DNA of 57,495 nucleotides from positions 1 through 57,495 of the forward strand of contig JAKAIC010000002.1 of assembly GCA_021814565.1 (NCBI GenBank). Direction: 5' to 3'. The notes under the pieces are model-generated. The model worked only from the letters and a program-made list of their open reading frames with translations. It was not told the origin of the DNA and did no database searches. The translations under genes were made by a program, and so were the position numbers. Shown one piece after another: positions 5,226-55,140 of the stretch. Every line of letters starts with the position of its first letter. The first letter of the stretch is position 1. Source of the stretch: Actinomycetes bacterium. GTDB lineage: Bacteria; Actinomycetota; Actinomycetes; S36-B12; UBA5976.

Positions 5226-5310
5226 GCGCCTCGCAGTCCGGGCCGAACCCCTTGGCGCGCAACGGGTTCTTGCGCCGCATGGCGGCGAGGTCCTGTGCCA
5301 GACTCGGCGC

Positions 5311-6006
5311 ATGTCGCGACCAGTGATCGGTGTGAGCACCTACAACGAGCCCGCTTCATGGGGTGCATGGAACCGCGTCCCGGCAGCACAACTGCAGTGG
5401 GCATACGTGGCCAAGCTGCAGGCCGCGGGCGCCCGCGTCGTCCTGCTCCCCCCGGACGCGGGAGACGTCGATGTGCTTGACCTGCTCGACGGCCTGGTGC
5501 TCACCGGAGGCGCGGACGTCGACTCCCGGCTCTACGGTGCCGAGGCCGACCCCACGGCCGATCTGCCCCGCGAACTGCGTGACGCCAGCGAGCTTGCGCT
5601 CTATCGCGGAGCGCTCGCGCGTGACCTGCCGGTGCTGGGCATTTGTCGCGGCCTGCAGATCATGGCCGTCGCAGAAGGCGGCACACTGCACCAGCACCTG
5701 TTCGACCTCGTCGGCGACTGGCGCCACCGCGAGCTGGCTGGCACCTTCGTCACCCATGGCGCGCGCTTCCTCGAGGGCTCGCACATCGCCACGGTGTTCG
5801 GCACCACCGCCATGGAGGTGAACTCATCGCACCATCAGGCGGTTGCCGATCCCGGTGGCCTCAGTGTCACCGGCTGGGCCGATGACGACACCATCGAGGT
5901 GTGCGAGCTTCCCGGTCGCCGTTTCGTACTCGGTGTGCAGTGGCATCCCGAGGTACTCGACGACCCGCGCCTCTTCGAGGCCCTGGTGGACGCCGCCAGG
6001 CACTGA
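5311..6006 (+). CDS. Gamma-glutamyl hydrolase, class I glutamine amidotransferase (PuuD-like, peptidase C26)
   Basis: This 231-residue glutaminase-fold hydrolase has nucleophile Cys112 in GICRGLQ and the catalytic pair His212/Glu214 in QWHPE. PuuD-type enzymes release glutamate from gamma-glutamyl intermediates such as gamma-glutamyl-GABA. It converges on a dehydrogenase, aldehyde dehydrogenase and glutamine-synthetase-like ligase, so it probably performs the last step of that pathway, freeing the oxidised product and regenerating glutamate. It is on the opposite strand to those genes and separated from them by a strong hairpin, so it is transcribed separately. ATG 5311 is chosen because family homology begins there (PVIGVSTY); no clear ribosome-binding site precedes it. 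Confidence 0.88.
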   Translation: MSRPVIGVSTYNEPASWGAWNRVPAAQLQWAYVAKLQAAGARVVLLPPDAGDVDVLDLLDGLVLTGGADVDSRLYGAEADPTADLPRELRDASELALYRGALARDLPVLGICRGLQIMAVAEGGTLHQHLFDLVGDWRHRELAGTFVTHGARFLEGSHIATVFGTTAMEVNSSHHQAVADPGGLSVTGWADDDTIEVCELPGRRFVLGVQWHPEVLDDPRLFEALVDAARH

Positions 6007-14898: not shown

Positions 14899-15552
14899 TC
14901 ACGCAGCCAGCAGGCGCTTGGCGAATTCACGATAGGCATTGAGCGCCATCGGGGGATGCGGGATGGCCATCGATACCGGCACCACGCTGGCGTCGAGCCC
15001 TGCTCCTCCGATGACCAGCAGGCCACGGAACTCCAGCGCCGGATTCACAAAGCGCCTTACCTCATCCATGGACGCGAGCAATTGCGCCTCCGCCCGCGGT
15101 GAATGCTGACGCACCGGCATCAGCACCACATCCGCGGCCGCCAGCGCATTTTGTGTGAGCAGGCCCAAGGATGACGCGCAGTCAACAATGATCCAGTCGT
15201 AGTCATCGACCACATCGGCCAGCGCATGACGCAACAGTTGCTCGCGTCCGGAGCGCGTGATCAAGAATGCTTCCACTCCCGAGAGTTCGAGCGTCGCGGG
15301 CAGCACATCCAGGCCGGCATCGGTGTCCAGCATGGCCTCCGTGACCGGCAGTGCATGCACCAGCACGTCGAAGAGCGAGCAGGAGAGCGTCTCGGCGTCA
15401 ATGGCAAATGCCCGCGTCAAATGCGCCTGGGCATCGAGATCCACTGCCAGCACCCGCTGGCCGAGGTCGACCAGCATGCTGGCGATGCCCACGGCGGCAC
15501 TGGTCTTGCCGGAGCCGCTCGCCGGGTTGGCCAGGGCCAGCAGGCGTGCCAT
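14899..15552 (-). CDS. Orphan ParA/MinD-like P-loop ATPase with altered Walker A
   Basis: This 217-residue ParA-superfamily protein has a P-loop reading ANPASGSGKTS (8-18): the signature lysine of the KGGxGKT loop is replaced by Ala11, while Lys16-Thr17 remain. Downstream motifs VLAVDLDAQAHLT and IIVDCASSLGLL correspond to the A-prime and Walker B regions. No ParB or parS lies nearby. The ATG shares one base with the marC stop (TGATG), indicating coupling. Loss of the signature lysine, which stabilises ATP sandwich dimers in this family, makes a canonical chromosome-segregation role doubtful. Confidence 0.85.
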   Translation of the reverse strand: MARLLALANPASGSGKTSAAVGIASMLVDLGQRVLAVDLDAQAHLTRAFAIDAETLSCSLFDVLVHALPVTEAMLDTDAGLDVLPATLELSGVEAFLITRSGREQLLRHALADVVDDYDWIIVDCASSLGLLTQNALAAADVVLMPVRQHSPRAEAQLLASMDEVRRFVNPALEFRGLLVIGGAGLDASVVPVSMAIPHPPMALNAYREFAKRLLAA

Positions 15553-16172
15553 CAATGCGCCAGTCCGATGAAGCCCTCGACCGAGTTCGCGAGCAACTGC
15601 ACACCGATGGCGGCAAGCAACAGGCCCATGATGCGCGAGAAGACCATGATGCCTCCGGTACCGGCGAGGCGTGCGATGAAGCCCGAGAAGCGCATGGCGA
15701 TCCAGATCATGATGTGCACCGCCAGCACTGCGGCGGCCAGCGCCACCCACTTGGGCGCGGTGTCCGCCTGCCGCGAGTAGAGGATGGTGGCAACGATGGC
15801 ACCCGGACCGGCTAGCAGCGGCGTGCCCAGCGGCACCAGCGCCACCGAGACGTCGTTGACGGCTTCGTTCTGTGTCTGCTCGGCTCCCGTGAGCAGTTGC
15901 AAGGCGATCAGCAGGAGCAGCAGGCCACCGGCTCCCTGCAAGGCCGGCAACGAGATTTTGAGGTACTGCAGCACCTGCTCACCAAGCAGGGCGAAGGCGA
16001 CGATCACCCCCAGCGAGGTGGCGGTGGCGGTGCGCGCGATATGCGCTCGCTGCTCCCGTGTCTTGCCCTGCGCGAGTGCCATGAAGATGGGCACGATCCC
16101 GGGCGGATCCATGATGACGAAGATGGTGACCAGCGCGGAACCGAACACCCGCATGTCGATCAGCGCACCCAT
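15552..16172 (-). CDS. MarC family integral membrane protein
   Basis: This 206-residue protein has six predicted membrane helices and the family signatures IVMDPPGIVPIF-like (FVIMDPPGIVPIF, residues about 18-30) and VPLGTPLLAGPGAI. MarC proteins have no agreed function; the early link to antibiotic resistance in E. coli was withdrawn. It lies 26 bp after the NRAMP-like gene and overlaps the ParA-like gene, so these probably form one operon led by the MgtE-type sensor gene. Confidence 0.93.
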   Translation of the reverse strand: MGALIDMRVFGSALVTIFVIMDPPGIVPIFMALAQGKTREQRAHIARTATATSLGVIVAFALLGEQVLQYLKISLPALQGAGGLLLLLIALQLLTGAEQTQNEAVNDVSVALVPLGTPLLAGPGAIVATILYSRQADTAPKWVALAAAVLAVHIMIWIAMRFSGFIARLAGTGGIMVFSRIMGLLLAAIGVQLLANSVEGFIGLAH

Positions 16173-16198: not shown

Positions 16199-17452
16199 TT
16201 AGGCCACGGAGTGCATTGAGAACCAGAACATGGCGAGGATCGCGCCACTGACGATGACGATGAAGGCGATGTACCAGGCACGCATGCCGCGGGAGGACCG
16301 GTAGTCGCCCATCAGGCGGCGATCGGCGGAGATGCCGTACATGTAGATCATGAGCGGCAGCAGCAGCACCGCATTCAGCACCTGCGACGCCACCAGGACC
16401 GTGACCAGCGGCACGCCGGGCAGCAGGATCATGGCTGCCGCGATGATGGTGACGGCAGTGAAGGTGCCGTAGAACAGCGGCGCCTCGCGCGGCGAGTCAT
16501 CGAGCGCGGCGGGGCGCCCGGTGAGGTCGCTCATGGCGTACGCAGTGGAGAGGGGCAGGATCGAGGCCGCCAGCAGTGCGGCACCGATGAGGCCGACGGC
16601 GAACAGCGCCTGCGCCAGATCACCCGCCAGCGGCTTGAGTGCACGGGCGGCGTCTGACGCGTCGTTGATGGAGATGCCCTGCCGGTGCAAGGTGGCGGCA
16701 CAGGTGACGATGACGAAGAAGCCGATGACGGCCGTCAGGATGGACCCCACCCACACGTCCATGCGCAGGTGCCGGAGGTCGTCGCGCGTGAGCCGCTTGT
16801 CGACCGCGTAGGACTGGATGAAGGTGAGACCCCATGGGGCCAGCGTGGTGCCGAGCGTGGCGGTGGCCATGAAGGTGGCATCACCTGTTAGCGGCATGCT
16901 GGGCACGAAGGAGCCATGCAGAGCGCTGCCCCAATCCGGGTGCGCGAGGAAGGCGGCCAGCACGTAGCAGATGAAGACGGCGCTGAGGGCGAAGAAGACG
17001 CGCTCGATCTTGCCGAAATTGCCGCGCGTGACCAGCAAGGTGACCACGATGGCAGCCAGCGGCACGCTCACGTACTTGGTGAGCCCGAACAGCTCGCCGG
17101 CTGCAGCGATGCCCGCGAACTCGGCGGCCATGGTGCCGAGATTGGCCAGCATGAGCGTGGTGGCGCTCAGCGCACCGGCACGGGCACCGTACTTCTGGCG
17201 GATGAGCCCGATCAGGCCCTGACGCGTGACCACACCGATGCGTGCACCGAGATCCTGGAACAGGACCAGGGCGATGGTGGACACGATCAGCGTCCAGATC
17301 ATCTGGTAGCCGTACTTGGCGCCCAGCACCGAGTAGGTGGTGATACCGGCCGGATCGTCGTCGGAGAGACCGGCGATGACACCGGGGCCCATCACTGCGA
17401 GGAAGGCGATGAGACCGGCCCGGCGATGCGAGGTGCGGACCTCGCCCGTCAT
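16199..17452 (-). CDS. NRAMP-related divalent cation transporter, probable Mg2+-type (NRMT-like)
   Basis: This 417-residue polytopic protein has the NRAMP fold, but the two unwound metal-site helices differ from Mn/Fe transporters. The first helix reads DDDPAG (31-36) instead of DPGN, and the sixth reads TLAPWG (203-208) where the canonical protein has MPHN, so both the Asn and the metal-selective Met ligand are gone. NRAMP-related magnesium transporters show the same kind of replacement. The gene overlaps by 4 bp (ATGA) the preceding gene, which encodes the cytosolic MgtE Mg2+ sensor domains without a channel. I infer Mg2+ transport gated or regulated by that partner; Mn2+ cannot be excluded. 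Confidence 0.87.
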   Translation of the reverse strand: MTGEVRTSHRRAGLIAFLAVMGPGVIAGLSDDDPAGITTYSVLGAKYGYQMIWTLIVSTIALVLFQDLGARIGVVTRQGLIGLIRQKYGARAGALSATTLMLANLGTMAAEFAGIAAAGELFGLTKYVSVPLAAIVVTLLVTRGNFGKIERVFFALSAVFICYVLAAFLAHPDWGSALHGSFVPSMPLTGDATFMATATLGTTLAPWGLTFIQSYAVDKRLTRDDLRHLRMDVWVGSILTAVIGFFVIVTCAATLHRQGISINDASDAARALKPLAGDLAQALFAVGLIGAALLAASILPLSTAYAMSDLTGRPAALDDSPREAPLFYGTFTAVTIIAAAMILLPGVPLVTVLVASQVLNAVLLLPLMIYMYGISADRRLMGDYRSSRGMRAWYIAFIVIVSGAILAMFWFSMHSVA

Positions 17453-18765
17453 GCCAGGCCTCCGGGGTTCTGCCAGGGCCAGCGTCGATCCTCGCCGCCG
17501 ACCAGCGCGTCGATGAGGTCGTCGGCGTGGATCTGTCCGACCGGCTTCTGCTCCTCGTCGACCACCACAATCGACGATCCACGGTTGTTGGTGAACTCCT
17601 CGAGCACCTCTTCGATGGAGGTGTCTGCGAGCACGGCTGTGGGGAAGGGCGGACCCACGATCTCGGCCAGCACGCGATCACCCGCCTCCACCAGTTCGAT
17701 GACCGGCACGTGGTCGAGCAGCTTGCCCTCGCCGTCGATCACCACGACGCCGTCCAGGGAGCGACGATCGTCATGGGCCAGCAACTGGCGCAGAGCGTCG
17801 CGCGCGGACTGGGATTCGCGCACCACCAGCATGTCGGTGTTCATGATGCCGCCGGCACTCTCGTCGTCGTAGGAGGCGATGAGTCGCAGGTTGTCCGACG
17901 CTTCCTCGGACATCTCCGAGAGCACGGACTCGCGATGGTCGTCGCTGAGTTCACGCAGCACCTCGGCACCCTCATCGGGCTCCATCAACTCGAGGTAGTC
18001 GGCGGCCTTGTCGGCGTCCAGGCCGCGGAACAACGCCACCAGTTCCGGGGACTCCATTTCCTCCAGCACATCGGCGGCGACTTCTGGTTCGAGCAACTCG
18101 AGCAGCGCCTCCTGCTCACGGCCACTCAGGTCCTCGATCAGGTCAGCCAGGTCCGCGGGGCGCATCTGGCCCAGCTTGGAGCGCGAGGACACGGTGCGCA
18201 CCGGGCCCACGCCCTCGGCGAGTGACTCCACGGCCGCCCAGTCCAGCACCTGGCTGGGGGTGGGGCGGCGGCGGTAGCCACCAGGCACGATGCGACGCAC
18301 GAAGGAACGGAAGGACACGTCGACGCCGACCACCACGTATTCACGCTCCACCCGGGCCAGGTAGGCATCGGACGAGCGCACCACGCGCATGCCGTCCACG
18401 TCGAGAATCTGGTGATCGAGCACATCGGCATCGAGCAGCGATTCCCCTTCCCGGCGCTGGAAATCCGAGAGGTAGATGCGAGTTGAGGAGAGCCGCACCT
18501 CGTCGTTGGACATGGTGAGGATGTGTGCAGCCTCGATGAAGGAGCGGCGAGGTCCCACCTTGACGATGAGTCCGGACACGGGCGGGTAGGTGGCCGTGCC
18601 GTGGCGCACCACGATGTCGATGAGCTTGCCGATGTCGTGGCCGGATTCGTCGCGCACGGGGCGCCCGATGAGGCCGGCGACGGAAACCAGGGATTCGGCA
18701 ACCTGTTTGGCCGTCAATGCCGATTCGCGTGGCGTGGCTTGCCAGCGTGTCAGACGCACGGCCAT
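17449..18765 (-). CDS. Soluble MgtE-N/CBS magnesium-sensor protein with PRC-barrel
   Basis: This 438-residue protein contains PRC-barrel-like segments at about 28-165, an MgtE N-domain of acidic superhelical repeats at about 197-300 (LADLIEDLSGREQEALLELL and similar), then a CBS pair at about 303-425 starting DESAGGIMNTD. No transmembrane segment follows, so the MgtE channel domain is absent. In MgtE these cytosolic domains bind Mg2+ at acidic sites and close the pore. Here they are translationally coupled to an NRAMP-like transporter, pointing to a separate regulatory subunit. Related stand-alone proteins sit beside mrp in mycobacteria (Rv1232c region). ATG 18765 follows a GGGAG-like site. 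Confidence 0.9.
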   Translation of the reverse strand: MAVRLTRWQATPRESALTAKQVAESLVSVAGLIGRPVRDESGHDIGKLIDIVVRHGTATYPPVSGLIVKVGPRRSFIEAAHILTMSNDEVRLSSTRIYLSDFQRREGESLLDADVLDHQILDVDGMRVVRSSDAYLARVEREYVVVGVDVSFRSFVRRIVPGGYRRRPTPSQVLDWAAVESLAEGVGPVRTVSSRSKLGQMRPADLADLIEDLSGREQEALLELLEPEVAADVLEEMESPELVALFRGLDADKAADYLELMEPDEGAEVLRELSDDHRESVLSEMSEEASDNLRLIASYDDESAGGIMNTDMLVVRESQSARDALRQLLAHDDRRSLDGVVVIDGEGKLLDHVPVIELVEAGDRVLAEIVGPPFPTAVLADTSIEEVLEEFTNNRGSSIVVVDEEQKPVGQIHADDLIDALVGGEDRRWPWQNPGGLA

Positions 18766-18886
18766 GGGCGTCTCCCATCCATCAGCAGTTGTTCATCAAT
18801 CGCAGCCTAGCAGCGGGAATGTGCTTGGGAATCCTGGTTTTTCGCGCGAGTCGACGGCCCGTCACATGGCTGCGGACTGTTCACCG

Positions 18887-18892
18887 TACGAT
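18887..18892 (+). promoter_or_regulatory. -10 element TACGAT of leaderless mrp
   Basis: TACGAT, then 6 nt, then ATG 18899, with no ribosome-binding site. It favours this ATG over an in-frame ATG at 18866. Confidence 0.55.
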
Positions 18893-18898
18893 TACGAG

Positions 18899-20029
18899 AT
18901 GTTCGCTGAACCAGATGTGATGGCCCTGCTGGGCACCGTCCACGACCCCGAGATCCACCGTCCCATCACCGAACTGGGCATGGTCGACACGGTCACCATC
19001 AATGGAGCCGACGTGACCGTGCGGGTGCTCCTCACCGTGGGCGGCTGCCCCATGCGCGACACCATCACCACCCGCGTTCGTGACGCGCTGGGCCGCCTGC
19101 CACAGGTCGGAGCCATCGACGTGGAGTTGGGCGTCATGAGCGATGAACAGCGCACCGCCATGCGCGACAAGCTGCAAGGCCCCAGCAAGGAGATCGCCTT
19201 CGCCAAACCCGGCTCGCTCACGCGCGTCATCGGTGTCACCTCGGGCAAGGGCGGCGTGGGCAAGTCCTCGCTCACCGTGAACCTGGCCGTGGCCATGGCC
19301 CAGCGCGGCAAGCAGGTGGCCATCGTGGACGCCGACGTCTACGGCCACTCGGTGCCGCGCATGCTCGGCATCACCGAGCCGCCGACACGCATCGACGACG
19401 GCTTCATGATGCCGCCGCAGGCCAACGGTGTACGTGCCATCTCCATGCTGCCCTTCAAGCGCGGTGGCAGCCCCGAGCCGGTGCTCTTCCGGGGCCCCAT
19501 GCTGCACCGCGTGCTGCAGCAGTTCCTCTCCGACTTCTTCTGGGGCGACCTCGACGTCCTGCTGGTGGACCTGCCCCCGGGTACCGGTGACATCGCCATG
19601 AGCCTGGCCCAGCTGCTCCCGGCCTCCGAACTGGTCATCGTCACCACGCCGCAACCGGCTGCGGCAGAGGTAGCGGTACGTGCGGGCATGGTGGCGCAGC
19701 AGACGCATCAGAAGGTGCTGGGCGTCATCGAGAACATGTCGAGCACTCCCTGCCCCCACTGCGGCGAGCCGCTTGATCTGTTCGGCTTCGGCGGTGGTCA
19801 GATCGTGGCCGATGTGCTGACGCGTGAGCTCGGCAGCAATACGCCGCTGCTCGCCAGGGTGCCCTTCGATGTGCGCCTGCGCGAGGGCGGCGATGCAGGC
19901 CGGCCGCTGGTGCTGGAGGCTCCCGATTCACCGGCAGCACTGGAGATCTTCCGCATGGCCGACGGCTTCCTGCAGCAGCCGAGAGGCCTGGTGGGCAAGA
20001 CCCTCAACCTCACTCCGACCAAGCACTGA
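18899..20029 (+). CDS. mrp: Mrp/NBP35 family Fe-S cluster carrier ATPase
   Basis: This 376-residue protein comprises an N-terminal MIP18/DUF59 domain (about 1-95, with Cys50 in GGCPMRD) and a deviant Walker A ATPase (SGKGGVGKSS, 115-124) with the CxxC cluster motif TPCPHCGE (Cys285, Cys288). Mrp/ApbC proteins carry [4Fe-4S] clusters to target apoproteins. The domain order and neighbours (MgtE-type sensor, tatB, htrA) match mycobacterial mrp. It converges on tatB with a 2-bp gap and no visible terminator. Confidence 0.95.
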   Translation: MFAEPDVMALLGTVHDPEIHRPITELGMVDTVTINGADVTVRVLLTVGGCPMRDTITTRVRDALGRLPQVGAIDVELGVMSDEQRTAMRDKLQGPSKEIAFAKPGSLTRVIGVTSGKGGVGKSSLTVNLAVAMAQRGKQVAIVDADVYGHSVPRMLGITEPPTRIDDGFMMPPQANGVRAISMLPFKRGGSPEPVLFRGPMLHRVLQQFLSDFFWGDLDVLLVDLPPGTGDIAMSLAQLLPASELVIVTTPQPAAAEVAVRAGMVAQQTHQKVLGVIENMSSTPCPHCGEPLDLFGFGGGQIVADVLTRELGSNTPLLARVPFDVRLREGGDAGRPLVLEAPDSPAALEIFRMADGFLQQPRGLVGKTLNLTPTKH

Positions 20030-54752: not shown

Positions 54753-55140
54753 GGGTGCCCTCCTTCTGCGTACGGTGTATCCGTGCGCGGAGGACCCGAG
54801 AAGGACTCGCCGGTCTTCGATCGAAACCGCCGAGCACCCCGCGCCTGGCGCAGTTCCTCGACGATCACTACCGGAGACCGACCTCGAATTTCTCGAGTCC
54901 TCGGCTTCGGATATTCGGTTGTAGTGCGCCCACGCTGGTGCCTGGGCAGGCTGACGCTCAGCGCACAGCCACGGTAAGGCTACGGGACGTTCGGGTCCCG
55001 CACCAATCGACAGCACCTCGGAACACGCTGAAGGGCGCCCGGACGTGGCCCGGACGCCCTTGGTACTGCGAATGCTGCGGCCCTGTCGACGGAAGCCGAG
55101 GCGCGAGTGGCGCCGCAGGCGGACGGCGAAGGCCAGCTAC
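54753..55140. other. Non-coding interval between rpsO and pnp
   Basis: These 388 bp hold no supported gene. A hairpin (55031-55042 with 55050-55061, 12 bp with one mismatch, 7-nt loop) follows rpsO and may slow or end its transcript; the pnp ribosome-binding site is at the other end. The space is long for this compact genome and could hold a processing site, as in other rpsO-pnp operons. Confidence 0.5.

Follow-up and report, generated by a model that had tools for sequence, protein, structure and literature searches.

A two-gene operon on the minus strand of the window, by which we mean the entire 57,495-nucleotide stretch that was analysed (contig JAKAIC010000002.1 of the Actinomycetes bacterium assembly GCA_021814565.1), encodes an MgtE-like sensor protein followed by an NRAMP-related transporter (Table 1). 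The stop codon of the sensor gene and the start codon of the transporter gene overlap by 4 bp in the tetranucleotide ATGA (17449-17452). The initial annotation had described a 438-residue MgtE_N plus CBS protein that lacks a membrane part and overlaps an NRAMP gene in this way, and the two open reading frames, Pfam and AlphaFold all bear this out.

Table 1. Features of the sensor-transporter locus, its flanks and related loci. Positions are those of the window unless a locus is named; Tt, Thermus MgtE.
Feature	Position	Strand	Description
Sensor gene	17449-18765	-	438 aa; tandem PRC barrel, MgtE_N and CBS pair, without membrane segment
Tandem PRC barrels	18223-18681	-	Sensor residues about 29-181; AlphaFold strands 36-92 and 108-181, Foldseek, alignment with PRC-only partners
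MgtE_N superhelix	17860-18165	-	Sensor residues 201-302; holds D232 (Tt E59), D264 (Tt D91), E268 (Tt D95)
CBS pair	17500-17856	-	Sensor residues 304-422; D416 (Tt D247) and D419 (Tt D250) retained, R395 replaces Tt D226
Short C-terminal tail	17452-17499	-	Sensor residues 423-438; replaces MgtE plug helix and membrane domain
NRAMP-related transporter, NRMT clade	16199-17452	-	417 aa
TM1 metal-site motif D33-P-A-G36	17345-17356	-	DxxG; canonical DPGN
TM6 metal-site motif T202-T-L-A205	16838-16849	-	TxxA; canonical AxxM
Mrp/ApbC-type ATPase	18590-20029	+	Divergent neighbour; true start probably near 18900; follows sensor-DUF1003 in relatives
MarC-family membrane protein	15552-16172	-	Other flank of the slot; adjoins the sensor in L241 too
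Stand-alone tandem-PRC genes beside NRMT	L080 3530-4108; L081 1762-2337		Also L085-L095

The Pfam matches of the sensor are MgtE_N (E 2e-21) and a CBS pair (5e-16), the MgtE membrane domain (PF01769) was not found in the protein by Pfam, and AlphaFold models it as a soluble protein (mean pLDDT 84) whose MgtE_N-CBS half superposes on the cytosolic part of MgtE as solved in 8gpv and 2yvy (TM 0.81 by target length). In MgtE channels Mg2+ drives closure, and sensing reaches the pore via the plug helix. The window sensor shares with the cytosolic N and CBS domains of these channels (2yvy, 2zy9) the fold and domain order and the Mg4-type acid pair, but it has neither plug helix nor pore, it has lost Mg5 and ATP ligands, and tandem PRC barrels are placed ahead of its MgtE_N domain. 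The PRC barrel claimed in the initial annotation has a weak match, under the Pfam cut-off (E 0.0037), when the window sequence is taken by itself, yet it is upheld by 46 of 49 relatives, in which PRC was found, and by the fold, the best Foldseek match of the N-terminus being the tandem-PRC protein CdpB1/CdpB2 (8qzo, E 6e-5) with PRC-H proteins as weak matches. The single barrel of that annotation is in fact a pair, which makes up the N-terminal 180 residues.

With Thermus MgtE as the reference for residue mapping and its Mg2+ and ATP sites as assigned previously (PMC5882242; PMC5529423), the Mg4-type acids are retained (Tt D91 as D264, Tt D247 as D416), the Mg7 acid is conservatively changed (Tt E59 as D232), Tt D250 is present as D419, and half of Mg5 is lost with the replacement of Tt D226 by R395. 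The equivalents of the ATP ligands Y170, R187, D188, N203 and F227 are G, I, E, G, and G, a loss that makes ATP sensing by the CBS pair unlikely. Among 104 other NRMT-linked sensors, the Tt D91 and D247 positions are Asp in 89 and 92, respectively, the D226 position is mostly Asn, and Tyr170 and Arg187 are usually retained while Asn203 and Phe227 are not; all five sensors of the window sub-clade have Arg at D226 and Gly at F227. D416 is also the usual aspartate of the CBS motif, and its conservation may be structural rather than metal-related.

The NRAMP domain spans the whole length of the transporter (Pfam E 3e-86), which scores under the curated MntH cut-off and has EleNRMT of Eggerthella lenta (PDB 7qia) as its best solved match (phmmer E 7.5e-94, compared with about 1e-22 for MntH). 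As the initial annotation had read them, the canonical DPGN has become D33-P34-A35-G36, a ligand change from N to G, and the TM6 Met has become A205, to which we add T202 in place of Ala. These residues make up the published NRMT signature of DxxG in TM1 and TxxA or TxxT in TM6 (PMC8806188), which in its DxxG/TxxA form is also found in 87 of 109 paired NRMTs. The TM6b histidines for H+ coupling are lost (APWGLTFIQ in the window and APWMMFFNQ in EleNRMT), and the Trp that replaces the TM6 histidine is shared, along with the fold family, by EleNRMT, which carries Mg2+ and Mn2+ with no H+ coupling (PMC8806188). By sequence, then, the window transporter is a member of the NRMT clade with predicted Mg2+ transport, and in the tree it lies inside the clade that holds EleNRMT, although in a separate branch with the NRMTs of genomes G038, G121, and G058 (support 100), whose sensor is reduced or missing. 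The two systems also differ at the C-terminal end of the sensor, where Eggerthella-type sensors, those of the nearest kin of EleNRMT, have a plug-like helix followed by a single hydrophobic segment and the window sensor does not. Elsewhere in the family the NRMTs can be longer, reaching 526-564 aa in L036, L037, L069-L071, L073, and L074, with about 120 residues beyond the Pfam NRAMP domain in that of L037.

Targeted searches of the source genome (2.0 Mb in 156 contigs, 98% complete) found no second NRAMP, leaving the NRMT as the only one, and no MgtE channel (PF01769); its Mg2+-related genes are one CorA and two CNNM proteins, and it has five P-type ATPases of unassigned substrate. An M-box (RF00380) was not found in the window upstream of the operon, even at a relaxed threshold, and promoter and terminator scans of the operon gave nothing exceeding shuffles. 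M-boxes are present at eight of the Bacillota NRMT loci scanned. The Bacillota NRMTs of L118 and L119 have an M-box, but no PRC or MgtE_N partner was found near them.

The pairing of sensor and transporter is widespread. In 296 Actinomycetota genomes, 55 sensor matches are no more than 3 kb from an NRAMP match, and the sensor directly adjoins an NRMT in more than 50 loci of this phylum; in the fetched loci it immediately precedes the transporter gene on the same strand in almost all cases, frequently no more than 30 bp away or overlapping. Of 80 named loci that were taken from a scan of GTDB genomes and span many phyla, 62 have a full PRC-MgtE_N-CBS gene next to the NRMT, one of them with an additional PRC-only gene, while the other 18 have a PRC-PRC gene only (five), a partial sensor match nearby (two) or no partner (11, of which 4 lie at a contig start). 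The identities of NRMTs and sensors are correlated (r 0.68 over 107 pairs; shuffles at most 0.11). The linkage is far above chance in this kind of co-occurrence survey, which the initial annotation had suggested as a check, and the pairs are in general co-inherited. Some long NRAMP reading frames (e.g., L031 and L047) are not read as sensor-NRMT fusions, their overlap with the upstream sensor gene being in another frame and due to an early start choice.

Shin et al. (2014; PMC4072509) had reported that an MgtE-N-like gene adjoins most NrmT genes and proposed feedback regulation. The pairing and the idea of a detached sensor are thus already published, and our counts extend that work and do not found it. 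The window pair resembles their units as a two-gene unit with the gene order of most members, in its clade of NRAMP relatives, and in fitting the published speculation on cytoplasmic feedback. It differs from them in lacking an M-box, in its mixed ancestry and in its location in an mrp-tatB-htrA region, and the PRC part is not mentioned in the main text of PMC4072509.

The partners of NRMTs vary most outside the PRC part. Thirteen actinobacterial NRMTs that had seemed unlinked have, directly downstream, a stand-alone PRC-PRC protein of about 190 aa without MgtE_N or CBS, although these loci are mostly from one family and possibly represent few events. The homology of these PRC-PRC proteins with the N-terminal part of the sensor extends to the motif DxLDKQIVDxxGxKVVRVND. 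The partner in G038, whose NRMT is the closest to that of the window outside its genus (62%), consists of PRC and a partial MgtE_N without CBS; the transporter is thus able to function on its own, as its closest relatives among NRMTs (54-62% identical) are accompanied by no sensor at all or by one that lacks CBS. At the other extreme, L044 (1830-3656) encodes, next to an NRMT, a PRC-MgtE_N-CBS protein whose MgtE membrane domain is still intact (PF01769 E 1e-16), which may be the ancestral state. This domain is degenerate in L050 (PF01769 1e-5) and L038 (0.06), is reduced to one hydrophobic segment in L039 and L052, and is still matched by PF01769 in 7 of 15 long sensors. The simplest reading of this series is of a channel decaying to a sensor with the PRC part staying, a direction of change that we infer, as the trees are unrooted. 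Of the elements that partner NRMTs, the PRC tandem seems to be the most constant. Both types of partner occur in the L107 operon, where a PRC-MgtE_N-CBS protein with a membrane-domain remnant is followed by the NRMT and then by a PRC-only protein (5253-5843). In the literature searched, with most subscription journals uncovered, we found no paper that treats both NRAMP and PRC-barrel proteins.

While most pairs have been inherited together, that of the window is by sequence chimeric, its sensor and transporter descending from different ancestors. The sensor groups with those of G016, G092, G102, and G189 (support 99), and the NRMTs of these four genomes are only 33-38% identical to the window NRMT, which belongs with the branch described above. 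Vertical co-inheritance is rejected by the AU test, as forcing the window NRMT into one group with the NRMTs that accompany the related sensors made the lnL 113 worse (p = 3e-44), and the window pair is the most discordant of the 107 (r -0.06 compared with a median of 0.74). The trees are quick searches with long branches, but the identities alone already show the discordance. The pair is also present, 83-86% identical, in G296, a member of the same genus, and the recombinant thus arose before these two species diverged; in this genus, two NRMT lineages appear to have recombined into one operon. These results also bear on the detachment of the sensor proposed in the initial annotation. The graded series from intact to absent membrane domains beside NRMTs fits such a process, but within the window lineage the sensor was not detached, having come with, or been re-paired to, an unrelated NRMT lineage.

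The operon also occupies a distinctive chromosomal slot. In all 18 fetched relatives of the same family or order that have the common sensor, DUF1003 comes next after the sensor gene and mrp after that, no more than 2 kb on; tatB and htrA lie past mrp, and several of these relatives have DEAD-box, ParA, and MarC genes on the opposite side. The window has the same flanks: MarC-ParA-DEAD genes border one end of the slot and Mrp-TatB-HtrA genes its other end, and the slot itself holds NRMT and sensor in inverted orientation. Neither DUF1003 nor a second sensor was found in the source genome. Moreover, in the sensor tree a single partner change divides NRMT-linked from DUF1003-linked sensors, and the latter form one clade (support 100) apart from all NRMT-linked ones, which rules out the window sensor as a vertical descendant of the family's resident one. 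Because the flanks match, DUF1003 and a second sensor are absent, and the DUF1003-linked sensors are a separate clade, a foreign-type sensor-NRMT operon appears to have taken the chromosomal place of a resident sensor-DUF1003 operon. The two operons are alike in sensor architecture and in their slot in this family or order but differ in their membrane partner, DUF1003 in the one and an NRAMP in the other. The operon of PRC-MgtE_N-CBS and DUF1003, with or without mrp, is conserved in Actinomycetota (L033, L034, L040, L041, L224-L228, and L230-L242), and Pfam confirmed DUF1003 in three of these loci that are more distant (L033, L040, and L041).

We propose that the operon couples NRMT to an Mg2+-dependent sensor that limits its uptake, an overall explanation that we consider somewhat better than an even prospect. 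The NRMT would take up Mg2+, and probably Mn2+, down the electrochemical gradient without H+ coupling, as EleNRMT does, and the soluble PRC-MgtE_N-CBS protein, translated just ahead of it, would sit on its cytoplasmic face, most likely docked by the PRC tandem. At high cytosolic Mg2+ the sensor would limit uptake, with Mg2+ bridging the acidic interface so that the MgtE_N-CBS dimer closes and the transporter is pushed towards an inactive state. As there is no M-box, control at the protein level would be the simplest and most economical route. The proposal draws on what the window shows, namely its domain content, the NRMT signature at the metal site, the conserved coupling, retention of the Mg4-type acids and lack of an M-box, and on what relatives do, since EleNRMT transports Mg2+ without H+ and Mg2+ drives the closure of MgtE; physical contact, the direction of control and the role of PRC as a dock are what we infer from these. 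The losses in the window sensor count against sensor control: Tt D226 has given way to R395, and every ATP ligand and the plug helix are gone.

The published complementation results call for caution on the choice of metal. The NrmT of Acidobacterium capsulatum, which has an MgtE-like neighbour, rescued an Mn2+-uptake mutant and an Mg2+ mutant only weakly, and co-expression of its sensor did not improve Mg2+ rescue (PMC4072509), so that adjacency and signature are no proof of Mg2+ control. It is therefore conceivable, though we think it unlikely, that the window NRMT is mainly an Mn2+ (or mixed Mn2+/Fe2+) importer and that what the sensor monitors is not Mg2+ but the imported metal, or else nucleotide or energy state. 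EleNRMT transports Mn2+ too, the window NRMT is the sole NRAMP of a genome in which CorA could cover Mg2+, and the M-box is absent, all of which would fit such a role. On the other hand, the soft Met ligand is missing, the full NRMT set D/G/T/A is that with which EleNRMT moves Mg2+, and the changes at the ATP-ligand positions make nucleotide sensing unlikely. A comparably low probability attaches to the sensor serving the transporter as chaperone, assembly factor or Mg2+ buffer and not as a gate, with PRC capping the membrane protein as the H subunit does the photosynthetic reaction centre. That sensors were dispensable in complementation (PMC4072509), that PRC-H proteins are among the weak fold matches, and that the most strongly reduced partners (the 13 PRC-only proteins and the CBS-less one of G038, with PRC and a partial MgtE_N) keep the PRC tandem and not MgtE_N-CBS speak for it, but a protein that served assembly alone could do without MgtE_N-CBS and its acids, which are intact in most partners across phyla.

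Least probable of the alternatives, in our estimate, is that the two genes share a transcript and not a complex, the sensor acting elsewhere, e.g., on CNNM, CorA or general Mg2+ homeostasis. The partner is evidently not fixed, as the same sensor architecture accompanies the unrelated DUF1003 membrane protein in relatives, and the window sensor and NRMT differ in their nearest kin. Yet both the single partner change in the sensor tree and the correlated identities of the 107 pairs point to partner-specific co-evolution.

If two operons built on the same sensor architecture were swapped, as the window slot suggests from one replacement event, their functions would overlap, and DUF1003 would thus be a candidate Mg2+-related membrane protein. 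More broadly, the PRC-tandem proteins could be a shared type of cytoplasmic subunit that plugs MgtE-type Mg2+ sensing into MgtE pores, NRMTs, and DUF1003 alike, in which case the displacement of sensor-DUF1003 by the recombinant sensor-NRMT would imply that DUF1003 is a component of an Mg2+-controlled transporter or channel; we put this forward tentatively, as a proposal that may well be wrong. The papers searched assign no function to DUF1003, which comes up in two papers on streptococci. DUF1003 occurs in Streptomyces- and Mycobacterium-type genomes. The finding of sensor-NRMT in the place of sensor-DUF1003 makes this membrane family, which adjoins the same sensor across Actinomycetota, a testable Mg2+ candidate and, as an alternative partner of the sensor, a useful lead. 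No mechanism for the sensor is assigned in the papers searched, nor did we find in them the constancy of PRC, the decay series, the chimeric origin or the DUF1003 swap. For work on that mechanism, the PRC tandem as a candidate dock, the series from full channel to bare sensor and the locus of the sensor-DUF1003 swap offer handles. Away from the operon, the window also contains an Actino-pnp RNA (RF01688, 49.8 bits) at 54809-54882 on the minus strand.
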